Shown here piece after piece: positions 24,123-25,867 of a stretch of DNA of 64,000 bases. Positions within the stretch are counted from its first letter, which is position 1. Each line of letters opens with the position of its first letter. The notes below the pieces were generated by a model. The model saw nothing but the letters and a program-made list of their open reading frames with translations, was not told where the DNA came from and did no database searches. A program made the position numbers and the translations under genes. The DNA is from a bacterium (GTDB lineage Bacteria > Chloroflexota > Dormibacteria > Dormibacterales > Dormibacteraceae): the NCBI GenBank assembly GCA_004299235.1, contig SCQL01000028.1, forward strand, positions 186,001 to 250,000, written 5' to 3'.

Positions 24123-25020
24123 GTAGCTCCGCGGCGGCGTCCTCGGCGCGAGCGTCGAGGATGAATGCGCCCGCCCCAAGCTCGGAGCCGGCGAGAAACT
24201 TGAGCTTGTCGCGACTCCGGTTCGGCGGGTAGAACTCGACATGGAAGTGGTGTGGCTTCCGGCCGCGCCCGGGCGGTCTCTGGTGCATCGCCATCACGTA
24301 CGGAAGCGGGCGGTCGAAAAGGCGGTCGTACTTCTGGAGCAGGCCCTTGAGCGTGCGCGCGAGCGATTCGTCGTCGGCCGCATCCAGGTCGGCCAGGCCG
24401 CCGCGATGCCGGACCGGCGCCAGGTGGACCTCATAAGGCCAACGCGCAAACGAAGGCACGAAAGCGATCCAGCGCTCATCGCGCAACACCGTTCGCCCTC
24501 CACTCTGCTCGCCTTCGATGACCTCGCAATAAAGGCAGCGCCCGGTCTTGCGCATGTGCCGGGACTCGGCGCGCAGCTCACGCTGGATCACCGGCGGGAC
24601 GAATGGGTACGCGTAGATCTGGCCGTGCGGATGGCTGAGGGTGACGCCGATCGCCTCGCCTCGATTTTCGAAGATGTAGACGTACCGGACGCTCGGCAGC
24701 CGTCCGAGCTCCTCGGTCCGATCTCGCCAGACCTCGATCAGGTCCCGGATGTGGTCCACCGTCTGCTCGCCAAGAGACGAATCGTGCACCGGCGTGTAGC
24801 ACACGACCTCACATCGCCCCTGCTCGCCCGTGTAGGCAGGGAAGCGGTTTTCGAAGACCGCGATGTGATAGTCGGGCTCGGGGATCTCGGTCTCGGCCTC
24901 CCCCGGCCGGGTGGGACACAGCGGGCAGTGGTCGGCGGGCGGGTGATAGGTCCGGTCCTGGCGCCACGGCGCGACGGTCACCCACTCCTCCAAGAGAGGA
25001 TGCCAGCGAAGCTCGCTCAA
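24112..25020 (-). CDS. galT: Galactose-1-phosphate uridylyltransferase
   Basis: A 302-residue HIT-superfamily protein. The catalytic motif is SHPHGQIYAYPFVPP, whose second His forms the uridylyl intermediate. CPLCPTRPGE and GRCLYCEVIE supply Cys pairs for structural zinc, and HHFHVEFYPPNRSRDKLKFLAG is typical of the C-terminus. It exchanges galactose-1-P and UDP-glucose in the Leloir pathway. The start is TTG 25020 with AAAAGG just upstream; a TATTAC box 8 bases before the start could instead indicate a leaderless transcript. First gene of galT-galK-GH2. Confidence 0.92.
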   Translation of the reverse strand: MSELRWHPLLEEWVTVAPWRQDRTYHPPADHCPLCPTRPGEAETEIPEPDYHIAVFENRFPAYTGEQGRCEVVCYTPVHDSSLGEQTVDHIRDLIEVWRDRTEELGRLPSVRYVYIFENRGEAIGVTLSHPHGQIYAYPFVPPVIQRELRAESRHMRKTGRCLYCEVIEGEQSGGRTVLRDERWIAFVPSFARWPYEVHLAPVRHRGGLADLDAADDESLARTLKGLLQKYDRLFDRPLPYVMAMHQRPPGRGRKPHHFHVEFYPPNRSRDKLKFLAGSELGAGAFILDARAEDAAAELRGL

Positions 25021-25167
25021 GCCTTTTCGTAATAGATGAGGTGGCGGCCGTCGGGTTTCCGAACCACGCGCCTGTTCAAGCGGCTCCTGGTCTTGCGGCG
25101 GGGCATTGAGGCCAAAGTCTAGGGGGATCGGGCTTCCGCCCCAGGGGCCCGCTGGTAGACTCCACGG

Positions 25168-25376
25168 CGAAGTTCACTGCCCGCGGGGCAAAGGAGGTGA
25201 GGCGGAACCTTGGATATACCGAGTCGCGGTGCCAACCGCCTCGTTTGCCAGCCGGGAGCTCGGGAGGAAGTGAGCCTCTAGGGCTTCCAATTTCCCAATC
25301 CGGCTCCTGGAGTCGGAGGCGGAAGCACTGCGAACGTCGATCAACGAGGGCCGGGTATACCCGGCCCTCGGCTTTT
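25168..25376 (+). ncRNA. Structured leader RNA ending in a terminator, upstream of a thioesterase
   Basis: Three nested helices can be drawn. Helix 1: 25187-25192 with 25244-25249 (GGCAAA/TTTGCC) and 25199-25205 with 25236-25242 (GAGGCGG/CCGCCTC), with a GGAGGT bulge at 25193-25198 and an inner hairpin 25210-25213/25219-25222. Helix 2: 25250-25255 with 25300-25305 (AGCCGG/CCGGCT), 25262-25265 with 25293-25296 and 25266-25270 with 25284-25288. Last, the terminator. A TAGACT box at 25156-25161 could start it near 25168; no -35 is clear. It resembles no riboswitch class I recognise. The stop of transcription just before the thioesterase suggests attenuation; an independent small RNA is the alternative. 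Confidence 0.6.
25345..25376 (+). terminator. Strong Rho-independent terminator
   Basis: A perfect 12-base-pair stem (25345-25356 with 25359-25370, arms CGAGGGCCGGGT / ACCCGGCCCTCG) is followed by GCTTTT. It ends only 27 bases before the preferred thioesterase start, leaving no room for a separate promoter. Confidence 0.85.
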
Positions 25377-25402
25377 GCCGGCGATCAGGGAGAATCTTGG
25401 CG

Positions 25403-25867
25403 GTGAGCCAGGACTTCTCGACTCGACTCAACGAGCTGCCCGAAGGCTGGCTGCAGGCGATGGGCGTGAACATCACGCTCGCCACCCAGGACGAGGTGCG
25501 CGCCGAGCTGACCGTCGGCCCCGAGCACCTTCAGGGTTACGGGATCGTCCACGGCGGCGTCCACTGCGGACTGATCGAATCCCTCGCTTCGATCGGGGCT
25601 GCGCTCTTCGCGCTGCCGCGCGGTCAGTCCGTGGTCGGGCTGGAGAACAACACCAGCTTCGTGCGCGCCGTGCGCTCAGGCGCCAGGCTGCATGCGGTCT
25701 CGACGCCGATCACCCGCGGTCGTCGCACGCAGGTGTGGGAGGCGCGAGTGCTGGACGAGCAGGAGCAGGTGGTGGCCACCGGGCGGGTACGCCTCCTGTG
25801 CCTGGAGTCTGATCAGGCGCTCGCCGGCGAGCAGGTCAGAGGCGTCCTGCATCCCGGCAAGGGTTAG
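25403..25867 (+). CDS. PaaI-type hotdog thioesterase
   Basis: About 154 residues with the single hotdog fold of PaaI/YbgC-like acyl-CoA thioesterases. GYGIVHGGVHCGLIESLASIG carries the usual HGG turn, and SVVGLENNTSFVRAV is the second half. Such enzymes hydrolyse aryl- or acyl-CoA esters. GTG 25403 fits AGGGAG (25387-25392); TTG 25397 is in frame but too close. It sits directly after the terminator-ending leader RNA, so expression probably depends on read-through. The 3' end overlaps the convergent membrane gene by 4 bases. Confidence 0.85.
   Translation: MSQDFSTRLNELPEGWLQAMGVNITLATQDEVRAELTVGPEHLQGYGIVHGGVHCGLIESLASIGAALFALPRGQSVVGLENNTSFVRAVRSGARLHAVSTPITRGRRTQVWEARVLDEQEQVVATGRVRLLCLESDQALAGEQVRGVLHPGKG

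Follow-up and report, generated by a model that had tools for sequence, protein, structure and literature searches.

A conserved structured RNA with a candidate small open reading frame in one family of Ca. Dormibacterota

SgrS/SgrT, SR1/SR1P and RNAIII/hld are dual-function small RNAs, and type I toxin mRNAs (e.g., hok) and RNA thermometers fold around the ribosome-binding site in alternative ways that exclude each other. Another dual-function small RNA is RyhB/RyhP (PMC5331693). The RNA described here is similar to the dual-function small RNAs in that it is short and structured, has its own predicted promoter and terminator, and carries a small open reading frame (ORF). It is unlike them in that the conserved fold includes the ORF itself, and a sequence relation to them was not found. 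As in hok-type mRNAs and RNA thermometers, the Shine-Dalgarno sequence can be covered by an internal strand, with competition from a distant one. Unlike in type I toxin mRNAs, the peptide is polar and charged, and the predicted effect of the 3' strand is to free the site.

The locus is probably (rough probability, 0.6) an independent unit about 205 nt in length that has a promoter and terminator of its own, either a small structured mRNA or a dual-function RNA with two exclusive folds and a peptide of 22-25 aa. This reading is supported by sequence comparison, namely by the conservation of the locus, the covariation in its rod, the preserved reading frame and stop codon, the promoter box, the terminator, and the retention of the RNA where the thioesterase is not adjacent. 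From the same comparison we infer that the RNA is transcribed, translated and able to switch, and so too any activity of the peptide, or of the RNA in trans. The locus would thus represent an RNA family that Rfam does not include. It is carried by nearly every genome of a soil lineage that is poorly known and largely uncultured, and its candidate peptide is conserved.

Distribution of the RNA and comparison with described families

The whole predicted RNA, of about 200-205 nt, was placed at positions 25168-25376 on the forward strand of the window (the whole stretch of 64,000 nucleotides that was analysed), with its 5' end set by the predicted promoter box and its 3' end by the T run of the terminator. 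The region 25156-25403 had a predicted folding energy of -123.8 kcal/mol, compared with -101.2 kcal/mol for dinucleotide shuffles (z = -4.6). Based on DNA searches, the RNA was present in 41 of the 42 genomes, and in all 14 genera, of one Ca. Dormibacterota family, almost always at about one copy per genome; because the family is one lineage, such counts of relatives overstate the number of independent events. That nearly every genome retains the RNA suggests a housekeeping role or a core regulatory one. The relatives are mostly metagenome assemblies, and several have the RNA at a contig end. At four loci (L041, L042, L045 and L050), the contig ended at the RNA or within ~70 bases of it, as can happen with strain-conserved sequences.

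Strong matches to the covariance model within the class were confined to the same family. Three weak matches in another family of the class were taken as chance, and the two that were read lay in an Ala/Glu-rich sequence that resembles coiled-coil coding DNA. Searching 24 genomes from other families at higher sensitivity returned no match with E < 0.2. When a strict sequence pattern was searched against 400 genomes of the phylum, the matches were limited to the Ca. Dormibacterota family, and among the GTDB contigs three further matches were obtained (Paenibacillus, Chitinophagales and Bathyarchaeota), approximately the number that we estimated to occur by chance. The RNA was not found in the viral contigs and plasmids searched.

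No Rfam family matched the window or ten of the relative loci at the gathering score, and at E values up to 10 the RNA-bearing stretch matched only unrelated families, all far below threshold. Our literature search found no description of a structured RNA from Dormibacterota. Judged from these comparisons, the structured RNA of this locus is real and previously unlisted, and Rfam is without it. A preliminary description of the window had reported an unrecognised structured RNA here and had named an Rfam match to a known class as the check; this part of it is well supported by both the missing match and the covariation reported below.

The rod-like fold, the length of ~200 nt, and the near-universal, single-copy occurrence in the lineage are reminiscent of 6S RNA (RF00013), and we considered a divergent housekeeping RNA (6S, tmRNA, SRP or RNase P RNA). 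This is highly improbable given the Rfam results, and ARAGORN detected no tmRNA in the window. In particular, 6S RNA had no covariance-model match at the locus, and matches to it below the cut-off were instead located elsewhere in the genomes of seven family members; four of these matches spanned the full model. The full-length candidates below the cut-off were G025:C1:37628-37804, G039:C124:13241-13416, G041:C85:4717-4892 and G023:C114:14378-14545, all at other loci.

Shine-Dalgarno sequence and small ORF

A perfect Shine-Dalgarno sequence, AAGGAGGTGA, was identified at 25191-25200 on the forward strand. It is invariant in the alignment and exactly complements the 3' end of the 16S rRNA, TCACCTCCTT, which was found in G000 and G025. 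The GGAGGT that had been described as an unpaired bulge is in fact part of this sequence. The genome has only ten AAGGAGGTGA sites, and the reversed control occurs once. At another of the ten sites, the ATG of a Flp-pilin-like gene follows after 8 nt, similar to the spacing of 9 nt at this locus.

Downstream on the same strand, a conserved small ORF of 23 codons (25210-25281) starts with TTG, would encode MDIPSRGANRLVCQPGAREEVSL and ends with TAG; it falls inside the ~210 bases that the preliminary description had considered noncoding. In 41 of 41 full-length relatives, a frame opening with TTG runs for 22-25 codons to an in-frame stop; L045 was left out of this count as its locus is cut by a contig end. 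The consensus peptide reads MDxPSRGANRLVCxPGxxExxxL. L041-L044 and L048 differ in length by 3 nt within the ORF, and in L049 and L050 the usual TTG is replaced by GCA, with an in-frame TTG one codon upstream. The conservation of frame and stop indicates that the small ORF is likely, though not proven, to be coding. The peptide had no match in Pfam and NCBIfam, and on inspection every relative has a polar, charged version that is not hydrophobic. A type I toxin mRNA was also considered as a candidate class and was rejected on this basis, as the hydrophobic, membrane-active peptide of that class was not seen.

The codon-substitution test, in which the tree was not modelled, was borderline for BLOSUM scores (p ~0.05) and gave p ~0.2 for the synonymous fraction, because the same nucleotides are also held by pairing. 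In the alignment, CTCGTTTGC had no variation, third positions included. Counting against translation are the weak TTG start, the long spacing, and the start codon, which is predicted to be mostly paired.

These features may also be read as those of a structured small RNA that codes for nothing and instead acts in trans or binds a protein or the 30S subunit. The ORF would then be there by coincidence, and AAGGAGGTGA would be conserved as an element for pairing or for binding 16S rRNA. Such an RNA would fit the nucleotide conservation, which at CTCGTTTGC exceeds what coding needs, as well as the borderline codon-level test and the strongly supported rod. It fits poorly with a frame and stop preserved in every full-length relative, with a length difference of 3 nt, and with the in-frame replacement of the start codon in L049 and L050, and we consider it unlikely.

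Rod, alternative hairpin and a possible translational switch

The RNA contains a long rod (25224-25333, forward strand) composed of an outer stem (25224-25232/25325-25333) and two inner helices (25236-25242/25316-25322 and 25252-25259/25303-25310), with a small hairpin at the apex in the alignment of 41 sequences. Across these sequences, 98.4% of the 1271 cells were paired, and two-sided changes were detected at six pairs; at columns 68/179, a UA/AU swap was seen in two separate groups of relatives. On every measure the rod outscored each of the 500 shuffles and every slid control, in statistics that ignore the tree. The rod is thus strongly supported by covariation.

The alternative is a hairpin that covers the Shine-Dalgarno sequence. 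Its 5' strand, GGCAAAGGAGGTG (25187-25199, forward strand), pairs with CGCCTCGTTTGCC (25237-25249, forward strand) in 99.6% of the cells, and the latter strand, which lies inside the ORF, can pair with either the Shine-Dalgarno sequence or the 3' UTR. This helix extends the first of the two helices proposed earlier (25187-25192/25244-25249) and includes one G-G mismatch. The earlier helix can pair in nearly all 41 sequences, but the strands are near-invariant and covariation is consequently absent, which counts against the proposed switch. In the neighbouring register, GAGGC/GCCTC, two adjacent compensated pairs were observed in one lineage. The second proposed helix (25250-25255/25300-25305) did not hold up, being broken in many relatives (columns 88-156 pair in 31 of 41 and columns 90-154 in 28 of 41); the register that replaces it, 25252-25259/25303-25310 of the rod, survives and covaries.

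The helices of the 5' hairpin and the rod share positions 25236-25242, and the two folds are mutually exclusive. In the thermodynamic ensembles of 39 sequences, the predicted occupancy was on average 0.54 for the 5' hairpin and 0.46 for the rod. When growing prefixes of the RNA were folded, the Shine-Dalgarno sequence was predicted to be open first and covered at ~90-160 nt, and with the 3' strand present it was partly re-opened in some relatives.

Under the reading as an independent unit, the strong Shine-Dalgarno sequence and the TTG would drive translation of the 22-25 aa peptide, MDxPSRGANRLVCxPG. In the 5' fold, CGCCTCGTTTGCC within the ORF would cover the Shine-Dalgarno sequence and translation would be low. 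In the rod fold, part of the CGCCTCGTTTGCC strand would be captured by the 3' UTR, the Shine-Dalgarno sequence would be freed, and translation would be high. A lineage-wide bistable mRNA, in which the codons of the ORF serve as the anti-Shine-Dalgarno strand and the 3' UTR as the releasing strand, would make a self-contained translational switch; we put this forward tentatively, as a possibility with the odds against it. The candidate triggers for such a switch would be folding kinetics, temperature, a ligand, or ribosome load.

Promoter box, terminator and the neighbouring thioesterase gene

The predicted -10 box of the RNA, TAGACT (25157-25162, forward strand), matches a TANNNT pattern whose distance to the downstream Shine-Dalgarno sequence is fixed. 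The box was found in 35 of 40 relatives, compared with a background of 1.4%. At the other end, a predicted intrinsic terminator (25345-25376, forward strand) consists of a GC-rich stem with the arms CGAGGGCCGGG and CCCGGCCCTCG (25345-25355/25360-25370), a TATA loop and then GCTTTT. The palindrome followed by GCTTTT is as first described, with a stem of 11 bp instead of 12 bp. A terminator hairpin is present at the same place in nearly all relatives, and the sequences of its arms change while their complementarity stays. Terminator-like units in a tandem repeat were observed downstream of the RNA in L025 and L028.

The hotdog-fold (4HBT/PaaI-like) thioesterase gene (25403-25867, forward strand; PF03061, TIGR00369) is the next gene after the RNA in most genera, and we judged it to lie outside the unit. 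The preliminary description had proposed the layout of an attenuator or riboswitch in which the thioesterase is expressed only by read-through. The locus does share with leader-peptide attenuators and riboswitches a structured RNA and a terminator before a gene, and the small ORF ahead of the terminator recalls a leader-peptide attenuator in particular. In addition, the T run of the terminator in the window has only four T, and the thioesterase gene of the window is without a TANNNT box. Together with the position of the thioesterase in most genera, these two features of the window also count against an independent unit.

The comparison across genera indicated otherwise. Two lineages keep the RNA and its terminator even though a gene other than the thioesterase comes next. 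The RNA of G020 is followed by a convergent gene, with the thioesterase encoded on another contig, and G041 has its thioesterase ~3 kb off, beyond a gene on the opposite strand. Moreover, among 18 relatives with a clear thioesterase start, 16 carry a TANNNT box whose distance from the start codon is 6-8 nt (background, 0.5%), which suggests that the thioesterase mRNAs are leaderless in relatives; the gene in the window, with GAGAAT at this place, is one of the two exceptions. Expression by read-through only is thus unsupported as a general layout, although read-through may occur at the locus in the window, given its four T and missing box. By inspection of the alignment, an upstream GCCGGG is near-constant while the terminator arms vary, and no conserved upstream partner for the varying arms was seen. 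As the RNA and terminator persist without an adjacent thioesterase and the RNA and the thioesterase gene usually have boxes of their own, an attenuator, riboswitch or leader-peptide device controlling the thioesterase is improbable as the conserved function. An independent small RNA, which had been named as the alternative, fits better, with the conserved small ORF added. Gene-order comparison across genera can thus overturn a plausible riboswitch call.

In the relatives, TANNNT boxes were located 6-9 nt before the starts of both the thioesterase and the divergent gene, and leaderless mRNAs may be common in the family. The divergent gene is of the TIGR00725 type, and a similar box is often present at it. 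In the window, the reverse strand at 25017-25106 instead has a 29-codon ORF, MPRRKTRSRLNRRVVRKPDGRHLIYYEKA, the stop of which overlaps the start codon of galT; it weakly matched the model for 50S ribosomal protein L34e (E 0.0017), with a score far short of the cut-off. The place of this ORF is occupied by a TIGR00725/SLOG-type gene in many other genera, and L012 has a longer relative of it.
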